Assembly (NCBI RefSeq): GCF_018860545.1
Contig: NZ_JAHKPN010000011.1
Coordinates: 62,001-126,000, forward strand
DNA length: 64,000 nucleotides
Reading direction: 5' to 3'
Source of the DNA: Winogradskyella psychrotolerans
GTDB taxonomy: Bacteria; Bacteroidota; Bacteroidia; Flavobacteriales; Flavobacteriaceae
The notes under the pieces were generated by a model. The model was given only the letters and a program-made list of their open reading frames with translations. It made no database searches and was not told the DNA's origin. A program made the position numbers and the translations under genes. Positions 18,997 to 26,995 of this stretch are shown here, one piece after another; the stretch's first letter is position 1, and each line of letters begins with the position of its first letter.

Positions 18997-19562
18997 AAAA
19001 CAAAAATTCGAAAATTGCCATGCTATTAATTTTAGCCTTATCATTTATGTCTTACACGACATTAAAAGATAAAACTGTGAAAGTTGAAGACAGTTCAATA
19101 ATTTGGAAAGGTTATAAAGTTGGTGGTGAACACACGGGAACTATTAACCTAAAGAGCGGGATGCTATCTTTTGATGGTGCAACCTTAACCGGTGGAACTT
19201 TTACTATTGACATGACCTCTATTAACACTACCGATTTACAAGGCGAATACAAAGGGAAATTAGATGGCCATTTAAAATCCGATGATTTCTTTGGAGTAGA
19301 AGAATTCCCAACAGCGACCTTAAAAATTACATCAGTTACTGGTAATGATGGAAACTATAATGTCAAAGCTGATATAACAATTAAAGGTAAAACAGAAGCG
19401 ATTTCTTTTCCTATGATCGTAAAAGGAAATTCAGCAACGGCAAACCTAAAAATTGATAGAACAAAACATAACATCACATATAAGTCGCCGTCATTATTAG
19501 AAACTATAAAGGATAAGGCCATTTATGATGACTTTGATTTAAATGTAACGCTTAAGTTTTAG
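18993..19562 (+). CDS. YceI-family secreted protein
   Basis: 189 aa. An N-terminal hydrophobic signal (IAMLLILALSFMSYTT) is followed by a YceI/lipocalin-like beta-barrel: WKGYKVGGEHTGTINLKSG, GTFTIDMTSINTTD, HLKSDDFFGVEEFPTATLKI, and a C-terminal DDFDLNVTLKF strand. YceI proteins are periplasmic and bind isoprenoid-type hydrophobic ligands. The exact role here is unknown. Coupling to a MarR gene by 4 bp suggests it is the main target of that regulator. A strong terminator follows at 19595. Confidence 0.92.
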   Translation: MKNKNSKIAMLLILALSFMSYTTLKDKTVKVEDSSIIWKGYKVGGEHTGTINLKSGMLSFDGATLTGGTFTIDMTSINTTDLQGEYKGKLDGHLKSDDFFGVEEFPTATLKITSVTGNDGNYNVKADITIKGKTEAISFPMIVKGNSATANLKIDRTKHNITYKSPSLLETIKDKAIYDDFDLNVTLKF

Positions 19563-19594
19563 TCCCTAGGTAATACATATAGCATTTAAATTTT

Positions 19595-19638
19595 GATTCT
19601 TGTTTTTATAAAAATTTTTAAAAACAGGAATCTTTTTT
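19595..19638 (+). terminator. Rho-independent terminator after the YceI gene
   Basis: GATTCTTGTTTTT (19595-19607) pairs with AAAAACAGGAATC (19620-19632) with one G-U pair. The T-run TTTTTT follows at 19633-19638. It separates the MarR-YceI operon from the tryptophan operon promoter. Confidence 0.85.
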
Positions 19639-19647
19639 ATTAAAGTG

Positions 19648-19678
19648 TTTGAAATCCGAAATTTGATTTCTATCTTTG
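19648..19678 (+). promoter_or_regulatory. Promoter of the tryptophan operon
   Basis: TTTG (19648-19651), a 19-bp spacer and TATCTTTG (19671-19678) match the Bacteroidota -33/-7 consensus exactly. Transcription should start only a few bases before the leader-peptide ATG at 19687. Confidence 0.8.
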
Positions 19679-19686
19679 ATGTTCAG

Positions 19687-19743
19687 ATGAAAATAAATAC
19701 AAATCATACTTGGTGGTGGAATTTCTCAAACTTACGTTCGTGA
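19687..19743 (+). CDS. trpL: Tryptophan operon leader peptide
   Basis: A complete 18-codon frame reads MKINTNHTWWWNFSNLRS and stops at TGA. Three consecutive TGG codons (19711-19719) make it a tryptophan sensor: ribosomes stall there when charged tRNA-Trp is scarce. It lies between a consensus promoter and a terminator hairpin, directly before trpE. That is the classical arrangement for transcription attenuation. The TGA stop codon (19741-19743) falls inside the segment proposed to form the antiterminator. Because the predicted transcription start is only a few bases upstream, there is little room for a ribosome-binding site. Confidence 0.9.
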   Translation: MKINTNHTWWWNFSNLRS

Positions 19744-19806
19744 ACTAACCCTTGGTATGTAATACTTATATAAAAAAAGGCTTGTCATTCACGACAAGCC
19801 TTTTTT
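19737..19806 (+). promoter_or_regulatory. trp attenuator: antiterminator and terminator
   Basis: Terminator: GGCTTGTC (19779-19786), six-base loop, GACAAGCC (19793-19800), then TTTTTT (19801-19806). Competing structure: TCGTGAA (19738-19744) is perfectly complementary to TTCACGA (19788-19794), which covers the terminator loop and the start of its 3' arm. A ribosome stalled at the Trp codons leaves 19738-19744 free to pair, so trpE is read. A ribosome reaching the stop codon hides it, so transcription ends. Folding was done by eye. Confidence 0.87.
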
Positions 19807-19820
19807 AATTTAACAAAATA

Positions 19821-19835
19821 CTGAAATAAATTCAG
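19821..19835. repeat. Small CTGAA/TTCAG hairpin before trpE
   Basis: CTGAA-ATAAA-TTCAG forms a short hairpin ending six bases before the trpE start codon. The context TACTGAAATAAATTCAGCAC nearly repeats the element at 9942-9961. It may be an interspersed repeat that also affects trpE translation. Confidence 0.45.
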
Positions 19836-19840
19836 CACAA

Positions 19841-21241
19841 ATGAAAACATTTAGTTTAAACACACATTATAAAAAAATACTTGCAGATACTATTACTCCA
19901 GTTAGTATATATCTAAAAATAAGAGATAAATTTCCTAACAGTATTCTCCTAGAAAGTAGTGACTACCATGCCAACGACAACAATTTTTCATATATCTGCT
20001 GTAATCCAATCGCTTCTATAAAAGTTGAAGGAGATATGATTCATCAAACCTATCCGGATGGAAGTTCTAAAAGTAATTTTATAGAAACCGTTGGTGTAGT
20101 TGAAGAAATCCACAAATTCACACAACGTTTTAAAGTAGATTCTAATGACGAATTCAAATTTATAAATAATGGTATTTTTGGATATACCGCTTACGATGCC
20201 GTTAAATATTTTGAAGATGTAGAGATTTCAAAAAAAGATAATTCAGTTAATATTCCTGAAATTTACTATGCCGTCTACCAAAATATAATTGCCATCAATC
20301 ATCAAAAAAGTGAAGCTTATATTTTTGCACATTGTTTCCATAGCGAAAATAACATCGACGACATTCTTCAACTCATTCAAACAAGACAATATGCATCTTA
20401 CGATTTTAAACCCGAAGGAAATATTGAATCCAATTTAACAGATGATGAATACAAACAACATGTAGAATTGGCTAAACAACATTGTGGCAGAGGTGATGTT
20501 TTTCAGTTGGTATTGTCTAAACAATTTTCGCAGCAATTTAGTGGAGATGAATTTAATGTTTACAGAGCCTTAAGAAGTATCAACCCCTCTCCTTACCTCT
20601 TCTACTTTGATTATGGGAATTTTAAAATCTTTGGGAGCTCACCAGAAGCGCAATTAGTAGTGAGCGAAGGAAAAGCCGAAATTCACCCAATTGCAGGTAC
20701 TTTTAAACGAAGCGGTAATGATTTAAAAGACGCGCAACTTGCCGAAGAATTAACAAAAGACGATAAAGAAAATAGCGAGCATGTGATGTTAGTTGACTTA
20801 GCACGAAACGACCTCAGTAGAAACGGAAGTAACGTGACTGTTGAAAATTATAGAGAAGTTCAATTCTTTTCGCACGTTATACATTTAGTGAGTAAAGTTA
20901 CAGGAACAATTCATAAAAACACGGACACCATGCAAGTGGTTGCAGATACATTTCCGGCAGGAACTTTAAGCGGAGCACCAAAACATAAAGCCATGCAATT
21001 GATAGAAAAGTATGAAAAAACCAGTAGAGGATATTATGGTGGAGCGATTGGCTTCATGGATTTTAATGGTAATTTTAACCATGCGATTATGATTCGTACG
21101 TTTTTAAGTCAGAATCATAAATTATTTTGGCAAGCAGGAGCTGGATTAGTGGCAAAGTCAAATCCAGAAAGTGAGTTACAAGAAGTTTACAATAAATTAG
21201 GTGCTTTAACCAAAGCGATAGAACAGGCTGAAAGTATTTAA
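19841..21241 (+). CDS. trpE: Anthranilate synthase component I
   Basis: 466 aa. It converts chorismate to anthranilate with ammonia supplied by TrpG. The tryptophan feedback element LLESS is present near residue 36. The chorismate-binding domain has SPEAQLVVSEGKAEIHPIAGTFKRS, the ENSEHVMLVDLARNDL core, FPAGTLSGAPK and YYGGAIGFMDF. First structural gene of the operon, 35 bp past the attenuator terminator, so its expression depends on readthrough. Two small palindromes separate it from trpG. Confidence 0.97.
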   Translation: MKTFSLNTHYKKILADTITPVSIYLKIRDKFPNSILLESSDYHANDNNFSYICCNPIASIKVEGDMIHQTYPDGSSKSNFIETVGVVEEIHKFTQRFKVDSNDEFKFINNGIFGYTAYDAVKYFEDVEISKKDNSVNIPEIYYAVYQNIIAINHQKSEAYIFAHCFHSENNIDDILQLIQTRQYASYDFKPEGNIESNLTDDEYKQHVELAKQHCGRGDVFQLVLSKQFSQQFSGDEFNVYRALRSINPSPYLFYFDYGNFKIFGSSPEAQLVVSEGKAEIHPIAGTFKRSGNDLKDAQLAEELTKDDKENSEHVMLVDLARNDLSRNGSNVTVENYREVQFFSHVIHLVSKVTGTIHKNTDTMQVVADTFPAGTLSGAPKHKAMQLIEKYEKTSRGYYGGAIGFMDFNGNFNHAIMIRTFLSQNHKLFWQAGAGLVAKSNPESELQEVYNKLGALTKAIEQAESI

Positions 21242-21251
21242 TTAATTTATC

Positions 21252-21321
21252 ATTCCTGCGTAGGCAGGAATCTATTTTAAAGATTGAAGTATAATTAAAA
21301 AGATTCCCATTTGCATGGGAA
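21252..21321. repeat. Two REP-like palindromes between trpE and trpG
   Basis: ATTCCTGC-GTAG-GCAGGAAT (21252-21271) and TTCCCAT-TTGC-ATGGGAA (21304-21321) are perfect hairpins. The second ends eight bases before the trpG start codon. They belong to the same GATTCC...GGAAT family seen at 24241, 24916 and 24963. Confidence 0.75.
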
Positions 21322-21328
21322 CATTAAG

Positions 21329-21901
21329 ATGAAAAAAATATTAGTCATAGATAACTACGATAGTTTCACATACAATCTGGTCCATTATTTAGAAGACTTA
21401 GACTGTGAAGTTACCGTAAAACGAAACGATAAATTGACACTAGATGAAGTTGATGCTTTTGACAAGATCGTATTATCGCCTGGTCCTGGAATTCCTGATG
21501 AAGCAGGTTTACTAAAAGAAATCATAGCAACCTACGCTCCAACAAAAAGTATTTTGGGTGTATGTCTAGGGCAACAAGCGATTGGTGAGGTCTTTGGAGG
21601 TACATTAGAAAACTTAGATAATGTGTATCACGGTGTAGCAACACATGTCACAGTTTCGGTTGATGATGAATCCCTATTTAAAGGTTTAAATAAAACATTT
21701 GAAGTGGGTAGATATCACTCTTGGGTTGTCAACGCCAATTTACCAGATAGTTTAGAAGCTACCTCATTTGATGAAAACGGACAAATTATGTCACTAAGAC
21801 ATAAGCTTTATGATGTTAAAGGTGTGCAATACCATCCGGAATCTGTTTTAACTCCTGATGGGAAAAAGATTTTAAAGAATTGGGTGAACAGTAAGAAGTG
21901 A
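21329..21901 (+). CDS. trpG: Anthranilate synthase component II (glutamine amidotransferase)
   Basis: 190 aa, class I glutamine amidotransferase. It has SPGPGIPDEAG, the nucleophile C79 in GVCLGQQ, HSWVV and the catalytic QYHPES near the C-terminus. It releases ammonia from glutamine for TrpE. I start it at the ATG giving MKKILVIDNYDSF, the usual beginning of this family. A TTG start at 21311 would translate the palindromic repeat. It is separated from trpD by 379 bp without a gene. Confidence 0.95.
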   Translation: MKKILVIDNYDSFTYNLVHYLEDLDCEVTVKRNDKLTLDEVDAFDKIVLSPGPGIPDEAGLLKEIIATYAPTKSILGVCLGQQAIGEVFGGTLENLDNVYHGVATHVTVSVDDESLFKGLNKTFEVGRYHSWVVNANLPDSLEATSFDENGQIMSLRHKLYDVKGVQYHPESVLTPDGKKILKNWVNSKK

Positions 21902-22280
21902 GAAAAAATTAAAATATAATTTGGGAAGAAACAAAAATCAGTAAAAATTAATGTCCCAAATTCCGACATCGTCGGAAACATCAAAATTAAGAAATAATGA
22001 GCGAAAGAACGAAGATGCGAGGCACAGCCTCAAGCACGAAGTTCTGAAAGTGAATGATACTTTAGCAAATGCATTGCATTCACGAATTCCTTATTAAAAA
22101 AATACGAATCAATGAGTAATTGCTTATTTTGATTGTGATTTTTGGTTCGTTTATTCGATGATGTTATTTTATGGAGCTCATGATGTGCTTCGGAATTGCA
22201 TCAAGGCAAATGAACAAAGAAAAAATATAATTTAGAAGAAAGTAATTAAAACCAGATTCCCACTGTAGTGGCAAGTAAAC
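21902..22280 (+). other. Gene-free spacer between trpG and trpD
   Basis: Within an otherwise compact operon this 379-bp spacer holds no open frame of note; the longest ATG frame near 21996 gives 16 codons. It contains a perfect hairpin TTCCGAC-ATC-GTCGGAA (21961-21977) and a long imperfect inverted repeat whose arms are TTTGGTTCGTTT and AAATGAACAAAG. It ends with a small hairpin CCAC-TGTA-GTGG (22260-22271) at the trpD start. It looks like an assembly of decayed interspersed repeats. Confidence 0.6.
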
Positions 22281-23276
22281 ATGAAACAACTACTAAACAG
22301 ACTCATTAACCAAGAAAGCATCTCAAGTGAAGAAGCAAAAAACGTCTTGGTTAATATATCCGAAGGACAATACAACCAAAGTCAAATCGCTTCTTTTTTA
22401 ACGGTTTATATGATGCGCAGTATCACTACTGAGGAACTTAGAGGATTTAGAGATGCCCTTTTAGAATTATGTATTCCAGTAAATTTAGAAGGATACAATA
22501 CCATCGATTTATGTGGAACCGGAGGTGATGGCAAAGACACTTTTAATATTTCAACATTGTCATCATTTGTTACGGCAGGTGCCGGAGTTCAAGTTACAAA
22601 GCACGGGAATTACGGTGTGTCATCGGCTTGTGGTTCGTCTAACGTTATGGAAAGCTTAGGTATAAAGTTTACTAATGACATTGACTTTTTAAAACGAAGT
22701 ATAGATGAAGCCGGCATTTGCGTTTTACACGCTCCACTATTTCATCCTGCCATGAAAAATGTGGCTCCAATCCGAAAAGCATTGGGGGTAAAAACCTTTT
22801 TCAATATGTTAGGGCCTATGGTTAATCCTGCATTTCCTAAAAACCAAATGGTTGGTGTTTTCAATCTTGAATTACTACGTCTCTACAGTTATTTGTATCA
22901 AGGCTCTGATAAAAATTATGCCATTGTTCATGCTTTAGATGGCTATGATGAAATTTCATTAACAGGGAAAACTAAGGTGATTTCTAATGCTTCAGAAACC
23001 TTATTTGAACCAAACGAATTAGGCGTCAACCAAATTGAACAATCAGAGATTTTTGGTGGAAACACCGTAAAGGAGGCAGCAAAATTATTCATTAAAATTA
23101 TTGAAGGCAATGGTACTGAAGCTCAGAACAATGTTGTATTTGCAAATGCAGGGTTGGCCATTGCCACAGCACAGCAAATTTCCCACAAAGAAGGATTTGA
23201 ACTAGCGAAAGAATCCCTTATGAGTGGAAAAGCAAAGCTAACTTTAGATAAGTTGATAGCGTTAAGCAATACATAA
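22281..23276 (+). CDS. trpD: Anthranilate phosphoribosyltransferase
   Basis: 331 aa. It transfers phosphoribose from PRPP to anthranilate. The PRPP-binding loop GTGGDGKDTFNIST and the KHGNYGVSSACGSSNVMESLG stretch are intact, as are the HPAMKNVAPIRKALGVKTFFN and LGPMVNP segments. Length is normal for the family. The ATG at 22281 follows a small hairpin of the operon's palindrome family. It is followed 72 bp later by trpC. Confidence 0.97.
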   Translation: MKQLLNRLINQESISSEEAKNVLVNISEGQYNQSQIASFLTVYMMRSITTEELRGFRDALLELCIPVNLEGYNTIDLCGTGGDGKDTFNISTLSSFVTAGAGVQVTKHGNYGVSSACGSSNVMESLGIKFTNDIDFLKRSIDEAGICVLHAPLFHPAMKNVAPIRKALGVKTFFNMLGPMVNPAFPKNQMVGVFNLELLRLYSYLYQGSDKNYAIVHALDGYDEISLTGKTKVISNASETLFEPNELGVNQIEQSEIFGGNTVKEAAKLFIKIIEGNGTEAQNNVVFANAGLAIATAQQISHKEGFELAKESLMSGKAKLTLDKLIALSNT

Positions 23277-23348
23277 ATTGGCCGTGTTAAGTATACAGGC
23301 TAATTACTGTGAACTAAACACTAAATACCGAACATTGAATACGAAATT

Positions 23349-24137
23349 ATGAACATTTTAGACAAAATAGTAATAGATAAACGCAAGGAAGTTAATCTAA
23401 AAAAAGAATTAATTCCAATTCAAGCGTATGAGCAACTGCCTTATTTCGGAAGGAAAACAAACTCATTATCAAAAAAATTAAGAGCAAGTCAGACTGGTAT
23501 AATTGCAGAATTCAAACGCAAATCTCCATCTAAATCTATTATTAATGATACAGCTTTAGTTGATGATGTCGCTATGGGTTATGAAAGTGCCGGTGTATGT
23601 GGCATGTCGATTTTAACTGATGAAATTTATTTTGGCGGTTCTATGGACGATTTAATGACTGCTAGAGAACACTGCGAATTGCCATTACTTAGAAAAGAAT
23701 TTATTATTGACGAGTATCAAATTATAGAAGCCAAAGCTATTGGAGCAGATGCTATTTTACTCATTGCAGCCATTTTAACAAAAGCCGAAATTAAGCAGTT
23801 TTCAGAAGTGGCCAAAAGCCTAAATTTAGATGTATTATTAGAAGTTCATAATGAAGAAGAATTACACAAATCCATCATGCCTTCTTTAGATATGCTAGGT
23901 GTAAATAATAGAAATTTGAAAACTTTTGAAGTCAGTTTAGAAATTTCAAAACAACTAAGTGCATTAATTCCTGATGACTTCGTAAAAGTATCGGAAAGCG
24001 GTATCAGTTCCGTTGAAGCCATAAAAGAATTACAACCTTATGGATTTAAAGGATTCTTAATTGGAGAGAACTTTATGAAAACGGATCATCCTGGAGCAAG
24101 TGCAACTCAATTTATAAAGGACCTAGCAGGTTTATAA
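23349..24137 (+). CDS. trpC: Indole-3-glycerol phosphate synthase
   Basis: 262 aa TIM barrel. EFKRKSPSKS contains the catalytic lysine, SILTDEIYFGGS and LLRKEFIIDEYQI hold further active-site residues, and LLEVHNEEEL, GVNNRNLKTF and VSESGISS complete the pattern. It closes the indole ring from CdRP. It is not fused to TrpF. The stop codon lies inside an imperfect palindrome (24120-24150) followed by a spacer with two more repeat elements. Confidence 0.97.
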   Translation: MNILDKIVIDKRKEVNLKKELIPIQAYEQLPYFGRKTNSLSKKLRASQTGIIAEFKRKSPSKSIINDTALVDDVAMGYESAGVCGMSILTDEIYFGGSMDDLMTAREHCELPLLRKEFIIDEYQIIEAKAIGADAILLIAAILTKAEIKQFSEVAKSLNLDVLLEVHNEEELHKSIMPSLDMLGVNNRNLKTFEVSLEISKQLSALIPDDFVKVSESGISSVEAIKELQPYGFKGFLIGENFMKTDHPGASATQFIKDLAGL

Positions 24138-24260
24138 AACCTAGCAGGTCTAAAATTAAAAAAAGGAACGAATTAAATTTAACATTACGTCAAGTGATTT
24201 TTGACGCATGAAAAAAATTGTATCGAGAAGAAATGAATAGATTCCTGCCTTCGCAGGAAT
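24120..24260. repeat. Palindromic repeats between trpC and trpF
   Basis: 24120-24150 is an imperfect palindrome built from two direct copies of ACCTAGCAGGT and overlapping the trpC stop codon. 24241-24260 is a perfect hairpin ATTCCTGC-CTTC-GCAGGAAT. A third, decayed copy begins at 24286 (ATTCCCGCTTTCACTGAAAT), where the right arm no longer pairs. Confidence 0.7.
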
Positions 24261-24307
24261 GACAAAAATTAAAAAGCGTGATGAGATTCCCGCTTTCACT
24301 GAAATAT

Positions 24308-24928
24308 ATGAAACTAAAAATCTGCGGAATGAAATTTAAAGACAATATAGAAGCTGTTGCAAGCCTGCAACCCGACTTTTTAGGCTTTATATTTTACGAT
24401 AAATCTGCTCGAAATTTTGATTCAATAATTCCAGATATTCCAACATCGATTAAAAAAGTTGGTGTCTTTGTAGATGAAACACTAGAAACTGTAAAAGAGA
24501 AAATAGAAAAATATAATTTACAAGCCGTTCAACTTCATGGACAAGAATCTCCTGAGTTTTGTGCAGCTATAGACCATGTTGAAGTCATCAAAGTATTTAG
24601 TATTAAAGATGAATTTAATTTTGAGGTGCTTCAACCTTATGAAGCCGTTTGTGACTACTTTTTGTTTGATACTAAAGGAAAACTACCAGGAGGCAATGGT
24701 TTCACCTTCAATTGGAATGTTTTAAAAAACTATCCATCAACCAAACCTTATTTTTTAAGTGGAGGCATCGGGTTGTATGAAATTGAAAAAATTAAAGAAT
24801 TTAAAGAAAGTCCAGCCTCAAACTATTGTTACGCCATTGATGTGAATAGTAAATTTGAAATTGAACCTGGATTGAAGAATATTGAAAAGTTAAAAAAGTT
24901 TATAACGCAGCTGTCATTCCGCACGTGA
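24308..24928 (+). CDS. trpF: Phosphoribosylanthranilate isomerase
   Basis: 206 aa TIM barrel. MKLKICGMKF carries the catalytic cysteine near the N-terminus, with PDFLGFIFYDKSAR, VGVFVD, VQLHGQESPEFC and FLSGGI. It isomerises PRA to CdRP. I use ATG 24308, ten codons inside a longer frame from 24278 that would translate a decayed repeat. The last residues (SFRT) and the stop are encoded by another copy of the palindromic repeat (24916-24936), so the repeat seems to have replaced or extended the original 3' end. Confidence 0.95.
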   Translation: MKLKICGMKFKDNIEAVASLQPDFLGFIFYDKSARNFDSIIPDIPTSIKKVGVFVDETLETVKEKIEKYNLQAVQLHGQESPEFCAAIDHVEVIKVFSIKDEFNFEVLQPYEAVCDYFLFDTKGKLPGGNGFTFNWNVLKNYPSTKPYFLSGGIGLYEIEKIKEFKESPASNYCYAIDVNSKFEIEPGLKNIEKLKKFITQLSFRT

Positions 24929-24982
24929 TGCGGAATCCACAATAAAAATCAAAAAATAATAGATTCCTACCTTCGCAGGAAT
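24916..24982. repeat. Two palindromic repeats at the trpF-trpB junction
   Basis: ATTCCGCA-CGTGA-TGCGGAAT (24916-24936) overlaps the end of trpF including its TGA. ATTCCTAC-CTTC-GCAGGAAT (24963-24982) ends 11 bases before the trpB ATG and is followed by GACAAAG, as in the copy at 24241. Confidence 0.75.
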
Positions 24983-24993
24983 GACAAAGGATT

Positions 24994-26181
24994 ATGAAAA
25001 ACACATACAACATCAACAACAAAGGCTATTACGGAGAATTCGGTGGAGCATATATCCCCGAAATGCTCTATCCAAACGTAGAAGAATTACGCCAAAACTA
25101 TCTGAAGGTAATGGCAGAACCTTCATTTCAAGACGAGTTCAATCAACTTTTAAAAGATTATGTTGGTCGTCCTTCGCCACTCTATTTTGCCAAACGTCTT
25201 TCGGAAAAATATAATACCAAAGTGTATTTAAAACGAGAAGACCTCAACCATACAGGGGCTCACAAAATCAATAATACCATTGGTCAAATTTTAATGGCAC
25301 AACGTTTGGGTAAAAAACGGATTATTGCGGAAACAGGAGCTGGTCAACATGGTGTCGCAACCGCAACCGTTTGTGCTTTAACAGGTATTGAATGTGTGGT
25401 TTACATGGGCGAAATTGATATTGCACGTCAAGCTCCAAATGTCGCCCGAATGAAAATGTTAGGAGCTAAAGTGGTTCCTGCATTATCTGGAAGTCGTACG
25501 CTAAAAGACGCCACTAATGAAGCCATTCGCGATTGGATTAATAATCCTGTGGATACGCACTATATTATTGGTTCTGCTATTGGACCACATCCTTATCCGG
25601 ACATGGTGACCCAATTTCAATCTGTTATTTCCGAAGAAATAAAATGGCAATTACATGAAAAGGAAGGTAGAGAAAACCCAGATTATGTCGTGGCTTGTAT
25701 TGGTGGCGGTAGTAATGCTGCAGGAACGTATCATCACTTTCTAGATAATGAAGAGGTTGGTATTATCGCTGTAGAAGCAGCTGGAAAAGGCATTCATTCT
25801 GGGGAAAGTGCTGCGACCTCTGTATTAGGAAAGGAAGGGATTATTCATGGGTGTAAAACCTTATTGATGCAAACTAATGATGGACAAATCACAGAACCTT
25901 ATTCTATTTCAGCAGGATTAGATTATCCTGGTGTTGGTCCTCTACATTCACATTTATATAAAACTGGTCGTGGTGAATTTTATTCAGCTACAGACGACGA
26001 AGCCATGACTTCTGGTTTGGAATTAACGAAGCTTGAAGGAATTATTCCGGCTATTGAAAGTTCTCATGCTTTGGCCATTTTTAAACATAAAACCTTTAAA
26101 CCTGAAGATGTGGTAGTGATTAGTTTATCTGGTCGTGGAGACAAGGATTTACAGAATTATATTGATTATTTTAAGTTGTAA
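24994..26181 (+). CDS. trpB: Tryptophan synthase beta subunit
   Basis: 395 aa, PLP enzyme that condenses indole with serine. The PLP lysine is in HTGAHKINN, the active-site glutamate in AETGAGQHG, and the phosphate loop is [17 protein letters not shown]-like N-terminus ([11 protein letters not shown]) and the COMM-region residues look normal, so it appears to be a standard TrpB1. Normally the alpha-subunit gene follows. Here the next gene is an FtsE-like ATPase, so trpA must lie elsewhere. Confidence 0.97.
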
Positions 26182-26311
26182 CTGACTAAAACTTGAAATC
26201 GAATTTGAAGCTTCAAAATGAAATATTAACAATCGGAATTTAGGATTTAGTTTTTGGAATTTGGTTTATTAGCAATACATTTACAATTACCAAATTATTT
26301 ATAACAATAAT

Positions 26312-26995
26312 ATGTCTGAAACGGTTTTAGAACTTAGAGATGCTACGATTTACCAAGGTGATAGTATGGTGCTGTCTAAGGTGAATTTTGAAATGAAAAA
26401 AGGAGATTTTGTCTATCTTATTGGCAAAACAGGAAGTGGGAAAAGTAGTTTCATGAAAACGCTTTATGGTGATTTACAATTAACCGAAGGCGAAGGTTCT
26501 GTTGTTGATTTCAATTTAAAAACCATGAAAGAGAAAGACATTCCATTTTTAAGACGAAAATTGGGTATTGTTTTTCAAGATTTTAAATTATTACCAGACC
26601 GTACGATTATCGGAAATTTAGAATTTGTATTAAAAGCGACTGGTTGGAAAGAAAAAGACCGCATTAAAGATCGCATTGATGTTGTTTTAGACAAAGTAGC
26701 CATGAAAACCAAAGGCTTTAAATATCCACACGAGTTATCTGGTGGAGAACAACAGCGTATTGCTATAGCACGTGCTTTATTAAATGATCCTGAATTGATT
26801 TTAGCAGATGAACCTACCGGAAATTTAGATCCTCAAACCAGTATTGAAGTTATGGAAGTGCTTCAAGACATCAATAAAAACGGAAATACCATTTTAATGG
26901 CCACTCATGATTATGCTTTGCTTTTAAAATACCCAAGTAAAACACTGAAGTGCGACGAAAATAAAGTCTTCGAAGTGGTACAGCGTAAGAGCTAA
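26312..26995 (+). CDS. ftsE: FtsE-like cell-division ABC ATPase
   Basis: 227 aa. Walker [10 protein letters not shown] (38-46), [11 protein letters not shown] after the Q-loop, signature [14 protein letters not shown] and Walker [17 protein letters not shown]. The [15 protein letters not shown] stretch is characteristic of FtsE rather than of MacB-type ATPases. FtsE with FtsX controls septal peptidoglycan hydrolysis at the inner membrane. No ftsX is adjacent. The gene stands 130 bp after trpB and 51 bp before the first glycosyltransferase. Confidence 0.88.

Follow-up and report, generated by a model that had tools for sequence, protein, structure and literature searches.

The stretch of Winogradskyella psychrotolerans DNA analyzed here (64,000 nucleotides in all, referred to as the window) carries a trp operon, and the question raised by the locus is how the short, tryptophan-encoding reading frame and the intrinsic terminator that lie upstream of trpE might control that operon. 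The first structural gene, trpE (19841..21241, + strand), scored 431.4 bits with TIGR00564, which is below the curated cut-off of 517.7, while PF00425 and PF04715 were both above their cut-offs; its nearest named relatives, with up to 95% identity, are from Winogradskyella species. The rest of the operon in the window, trpG, trpD, trpC, trpF and trpB (21311..26181, + strand), was assigned with NCBIfam and Pfam profiles, the trpF reading frame (24278–24928) falling below the NCBIfam cut-offs and above that of Pfam PF00697. The approximately 380 bases between trpG and trpD (21902–22280) contain no plus-strand reading frame of more than 50 amino acids, which is unusual for an operon. Moreover, trpA does not adjoin trpB (24994–26312), and the trpA match of this genome is located on another contig (G000:C15:5067–5792). 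On the other side, an inverted repeat followed by a T run at 19595–19632, 3' of a YceI-like gene, is, judged by eye, probably the terminator of that gene; a consensus scan did not list this repeat as a terminator.

A preliminary description of the region had reported an 18-codon frame with three consecutive TGG codons, a terminator hairpin with a T run, and a seven-base complementarity between the two, and had proposed from these that trpE is subject to ribosome-mediated attenuation. The reading frame was confirmed base for base: it runs on the + strand from ATG at 19687 to TGA at 19741–19743 (19687..19743; 18 codons, MKINTNHTWWWNFSNLRS followed by the stop), with TGG at 19711, 19714 and 19717 forming the proposed stall site (19711..19719). 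The terminator (19773..19806, + strand) folds as described, with a 14-bp stem that pairs 19773–19786 with 19793–19806, a loop at 19787–19792 and T residues at 19801–19806, and trpE starts 34 nt past it. Likewise, TCGTGAA at 19738–19744 is exactly complementary to TTCACGA at 19788–19794. In the RNA, UCGUGAA (19738..19744, + strand) constitutes the leader strand of what we consider the main antiterminator helix, and pairing scans and co-variation in relatives identify its target, UUCACGA (19788..19794, + strand), which consists of terminator loop residues and the first two bases of the 3' arm. The fold of 19680–19812 has a z-score of -4.34, and none of 200 shuffled sequences folded as well.

Absent from the preliminary description was a protector hairpin (19705..19759, + strand), found in both the minimum free energy and the centroid fold, that has the Trp codons in its 5' strand and CCUUGGUAUG as its 3' strand; in folds of the window it is the free-energy minimum until the terminator tip is exposed. 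A truncated-transcript fold additionally contains two short accessory antiterminator helices (leader strands within 19746..19753, + strand), in which UAA at 19746–19748 pairs with 19782–19784 and CCUU at 19750–19753 pairs with 19777–19780, thereby reaching the 5' arm of the terminator with 3 and 4 bp, respectively. Coming from the fold of the window alone, CCUU/AAGG is a weak candidate for a second antiterminator helix.

The seven-base match scores 17, above the 95th percentile (15.6) and below the 99th (17.6) of shuffled leaders from 203 related loci taken together, and is marginal when considered alone. What places it above chance, in our view, is where it lies, the way it is conserved and co-varies across relatives, and an independent match to Rfam (see below). 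A simple consensus scan for promoters and terminators listed neither the terminator at 19773..19806 nor a Bacteroidota promoter. The possibility that the hairpin is a generic terminator was rejected, as its 26-nt core occurs only once in the genome within three mismatches.

Positions 19664..19786 match the Rfam family RF01692 (Bacteroid-trp) with 68.1 bits (gathering threshold 49; E 2.6e-06, covariance model). The match spans model positions 1–131 of 131; no other Rfam match in the window reaches the gathering threshold, and no second RF01692 match was reported in the genome. Several model pairs are non-standard in the window and a few 3' positions are deleted, and the window folds a hairpin similar to that of the model at 19705–19759. 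The two are alike in sequence and structure over the whole model, in the Trp leader ORF (WWW within 18 codons), in the location before trpE and the trp biosynthesis genes, and in having a Bacteroidota host. They differ in that the RF01692 model includes no antiterminator helix and stops within the 5' arm of the terminator. The window element is a member of this catalogued family and not a new discovery.

The family was published in 2010 by Weinberg et al. (PMC2864571, as a row of Table 1), the Bacteroid-trp element preceding the Flavobacterium psychrophilum trp operon is noted in PMC6414381, and leader peptide attenuation in flavobacteria is mentioned in general terms in PMC9723704. A search of the open literature, with supplements and most subscription papers outside its reach, yielded no account of an RF01692 antiterminator. 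The element is therefore mostly known; novelty may lie in its antiterminator geometry, in the co-variation of that antiterminator, and in a nearly leaderless start.

To compare the anatomy of related loci, we assembled 210 of them, comprising every RF01692 match from draws of genus and family genomes and the new matches from draws of order and class genomes. Seven were dropped: three are second copies of genomes already in the set (L076, L125, L152), one has no credible leader (L075), and in three the finder used did not detect a terminator (L032, L128, L181). This left 203 usable loci, the window included. RF01692 matches were found in 56 of 60 genus genomes and 141 of 199 family genomes; the wider draws, which also contain members of the family to which the window belongs and were searched with stricter filters that lose weak matches, yielded 17/119 (order), 7/149 (class) and 14/148 (phylum).

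Among the 62 genus and family genomes without a match, 24 were examined. A trpD above the cut-off was present in 16 of these and lacking in eight, as compared with 12 of 12 matched genomes tested. From the 16 trpD-bearing genomes we took 17 stretches, 14 of which show trpE and its upstream region, and 12 of these 14 operons have a complete leader and terminator (WW in five, WWW in seven), indicating that RF01692 under-counts. The other two are L294, which has Trp codons and a terminator and a leader whose start is lost at a contig end, and L301 (G094), in which neither a Trp leader nor a terminator was found within 330 nt 5' of trpE. Adding the 12 complete loci gave an extended set of 215; the five stretches outside it are L294 and L301, L295 and L309 (no trpE start), and L306 (no trpE). 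One of the unmatched genomes (G062, L296) has two trpD matches above the cut-off; that on contig C35 has its own attenuator, GCGAG/CTCGC, and the start of the other trp operon lies beyond a contig edge.

The comparison within Flavobacteriaceae that had been suggested along with the original proposal supported it, in that all 203 usable loci encode WW and 197 of them WWW (the leader finder demanded at least two Trp codons). A CGTG core was present in 179 loci and lies 18–20 nt past the last Trp codon in 177 of these (19 nt in 135, 20 nt in 39), and thus the sensor codons lie at the ribosome-sized distance from the antiterminator that characterizes trp-type attenuators. The spacing between the core and the stop codon is less uniform. 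The preliminary description had placed the leader stop inside the antiterminator strand; this is correct for the window and for 113 of the 184 CGTG-core loci of the extended set, in which the core begins 2 nt ahead of the stop, and does not hold in general, as the core starts 7 nt before the stop in 39 loci, 6 nt before it in one, and 4–13 nt after the first base of the stop in 31. Because the distance to the Trp codons is fixed while the stop codon shifts, we conclude that the position of the antiterminator is set by the Trp codons and not by the stop. Such a ruler is what would be expected if a stalled ribosome had to leave the segment free. Given the size of a ribosome footprint, the stop codon is also always near enough to the core for a terminating ribosome to cover it. 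Conservation of UCGUGA on account of the peptide it encodes was rejected as an explanation, since the core occurs in two frames, with the stop before, in or after it.

We then asked which part of the terminator the leader pairs with, by searching for helices between the leader segment that extends from 8 nt past the last Trp codon to the stem and a target that consisted of the terminator's loop with the 5' arm before it and the first five bases of the 3' arm after it. The best helix includes no 5'-arm base in 195 of the 215 loci, some in 18, and 5'-arm bases only in two (L069, L305). When the tip alone was taken as the target, the best helix starts 15–22 nt past the last Trp codon in 212/215 loci and has at least 6 bp in 200/215. 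In the 176 loci having both cores, the helices are 5–9 bp long, 132 of them 7 bp, and extension on one side trades off against extension on the other (Fisher p 2.2e-15, uncorrected for relatedness). At least four expected leader:tip pairs are present in 201/203 loci as opposed to 227/1015 shuffles; for protector-like pairing, with at least five expected pairs, the numbers are 212/215 loci and 303/645 shuffles. The main antiterminator helix, which RF01692 does not model, thus appears to grip the terminator loop and the first bases of the 3' arm.

Support for this pairing also comes from loci in which the terminator tip has changed. In 19 loci with altered tips, leaders scored a mean of 15.81 with their own partners and 12.58 (sd 0.53) with permuted partners, the own-partner mean being reached in 0 of 2000 permutations (relatedness uncorrected); over all 215 loci, which are related and not independent, the corresponding values are 16.75 and 15.99 (sd 0.08; 0/1000). 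In L302 (G101) the terminator and antiterminator are wholly changed in sequence and still form 8 bp (GGATTCAG/CTGAATCC), and changed helices are likewise seen in L115 (TTGTCGCAAT/ATTGCGACAA), L078 (TCGTAAAC/GTTTACGA) and L307 (TGCGATGAT/GTCATCGCG), and further in L297, L296, L073 and L066. Hence the co-varying leader:terminator pairing anticipated for Flavobacteriaceae was indeed found, and the leader seems to tend to change together with the terminator tip.

The tendency has exceptions. Of the 19 altered loci, only 12 score better with their own tip than with the canonical one, and in only seven does the own tip rank in the top tenth; no convincing helix with the terminator tip was found in L071, L080, L082 or L305, L082 retaining UCGUGAA despite its changed tip; and in seven loci of the TTAGTGAAA type the tip helix has only 5 bp. 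L069 (G310, from another family of the order) has instead a 10-bp complement of the 5' arm only, the textbook arrangement replacing the tip-directed helix. Five position-wise tests of the pairs flanking the fixed core proved weak: two were uninformative (no shuffle effect), x2 gave 477/2000 and z 8/2000, and pair w was paired less often than when shuffled (19 versus 31.5). As in trp-type attenuators, antiterminator and terminator are alternatives linked by co-variation; they exclude each other incompletely, since no more than two bases of the stem are shared with the main helix in the window.

As to where the transcript begins, a Bacteroidota promoter consensus of TTTG/TANNTTTG is quoted in PMC6847099, and the window contains by direct reading a candidate -33 element, TTTG (19648..19651, + strand), and, fitting the -7 element (TAnnTTTG), TATCTTTG (19671..19678, + strand). 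Of the 203 loci, 196 have a TAnnTTTG in the 60 nt that precede the leader start, and 10 have one in a control stretch of equal length, 200–260 nt upstream. In an uncontrolled count, TTG is found 17–26 nt 5' of the -7 box in 181 of the 196 box-bearing loci. As the -7 box is reported at -12 to -5 in F. psychrophilum (PMC9723704), transcription in the window is predicted to start near 19683 (+ strand), which would leave a 5' UTR of about 4 nt and a nearly leaderless leader ORF. Box positions similarly predict a 5' UTR of 3–5 nt in 49 of 57 genus loci, and of no more than 5 nt in 102 of the 208 box-bearing loci of the wider set. Since 87% of F. johnsoniae transcripts are reported to have leaders of over 10 nt (PMC6847099), a near-leaderless trp transcript would be unusual.

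Taken together, the best explanation is very probably that the element is a ribosome-mediated transcription attenuator of the trpEGDCFB operon and a member of RF01692; the conserved Trp codons and the co-varying pairing support the attenuation of trpE originally proposed. From sequence comparison and folding we infer a start site, a stalling step, kinetics and a response to tryptophan that would combine as follows. Transcription would begin just 5' of the near-leaderless 18-codon ORF. When charged tRNA-Trp is scarce, the ribosome would stall on the UGG codons at 19711–19719 and mask the 5' strand of the protector, leaving UCGUGAA at 19738–19744 free. Once the 5' arm and loop of the terminator have left RNA polymerase, UCGUGAA could pair with UUCACGA at 19788–19794, the antiterminator being extended in the window by 3 and 4 bp onto the terminator's 5' arm. 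This would occupy the nucleation site of the terminator during transcription of the short U run, and polymerase would continue into trpE.

Folds of the nascent RNA are consistent with these steps. With the RNA covered to 19732, as by a stalled ribosome, the antiterminator dominates at exposed ends 19792–19799 (mean pair probability 0.82–0.95); with the RNA covered to 19753, as by a ribosome that has reached the stop, formation of the terminator begins at an exposed end of 19795–19796. From about 19800 exposed, the terminator wins in every ribosome state, and because the finished terminator is more stable than the antiterminator, the mechanism must depend on kinetics. In the E. coli model, some 8 nt of the transcript cannot yet pair (PMC1183508); on that basis, once polymerase reaches the last base of the U run (19806) the exposed end would be near 19798, and consequently the antiterminator need win only briefly. 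In the absence of a ribosome, the equilibrium fold prefers the antiterminator over the protector at exposed ends 19792–19798, so that read-through would be expected of a leader that is not translated, unless the protector traps the RNA kinetically.

We lean slightly towards a more specific reading, the parts of which we judge jointly: capture of the terminator tip, a nearly leaderless start without Shine-Dalgarno initiation, and a family wider than RF01692. Here the freed leader strand would pair with the loop and first 3'-arm bases and leave the terminator's 5' arm unreplaced; its target would be the last stretch to emerge from RNA polymerase before the U run, so that terminator nucleation may be blocked just long enough. 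The greater width of the true family is suggested by the joint change of tip sequences and their partners.

Other regulators could act on similar structures. Because T-boxes control trp genes in other bacteria, we considered a T-box or another RNA that senses tRNA-Trp directly; since no Rfam family other than RF01692 reaches the gathering threshold in the window, this is hardly credible. The T-box covariance model matched neither the window at that threshold nor 19560–19900 at a relaxed one, and a T-box was accordingly rejected. A TRAP-like or other RNA-binding protein that chooses between terminator and antiterminator, with the small ORF being incidental, could make as much use of the three structures (protector, antiterminator, terminator) as a ribosome. 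However, it would not lead one to expect tandem Trp codons in 203 of 203 usable loci (albeit with a finder that demanded two), nor an antiterminator that is spaced from these codons instead of from the stop codon, and we regard it as very improbable.

Scarcely more probable, and still highly unlikely, is a terminator that marks a constitutive or leaky 3' end, with the RNA or peptide of the leader acting in trans once released, in the manner of rnTrpL and peTrpL of Sinorhizobium meliloti. A leaderless trpL with trans roles has been described in that organism (PMC7298713), whereas the co-variation between leader and terminator tip in the loci analyzed here speaks for a switch in cis, beside which an added function in trans may exist. 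Ribosome-mediated attenuation thus remains our preferred explanation.

The proposed attenuator shares with that of the E. coli trp operon the logic of Trp codons, protector, antiterminator and terminator (PMC1183508), despite the different phylum and different sequence. In E. coli, the antiterminator employs segment III, which in the terminator is the partner of IV (PMC1183508), whereas the main helix in the window takes the loop and the first 3'-arm bases. Furthermore, E. coli has two adjacent Trp codons (PMC1183508), while the RF01692 loci analyzed here usually have three. The S. meliloti trpL resembles the window in that the transcript starts at the leader ORF or close to it; this 5' end is reported for S. 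meliloti (PMC7298713), and the 5' UTR in the window is a prediction. Structured 5' transcripts of F. psychrophilum likewise provide strong clues for leader peptide attenuation before amino acid operons, although the main text of that study names no tryptophan case (PMC9723704).

These analyses provide comparative evidence for how a catalogued Bacteroidota leader RNA, the mechanism of which we did not find described in the open literature, probably switches, and they yield both an antiterminator helix absent from RF01692 and the basis for a better model of the family. If the proposed mechanism is correct, the element would offer a clear-cut instance of control timed by the ribosome in bacteria whose initiation does not rely on Shine-Dalgarno sequences, and would show that a natural antiterminator can target a terminator's tip instead of its 5' arm.
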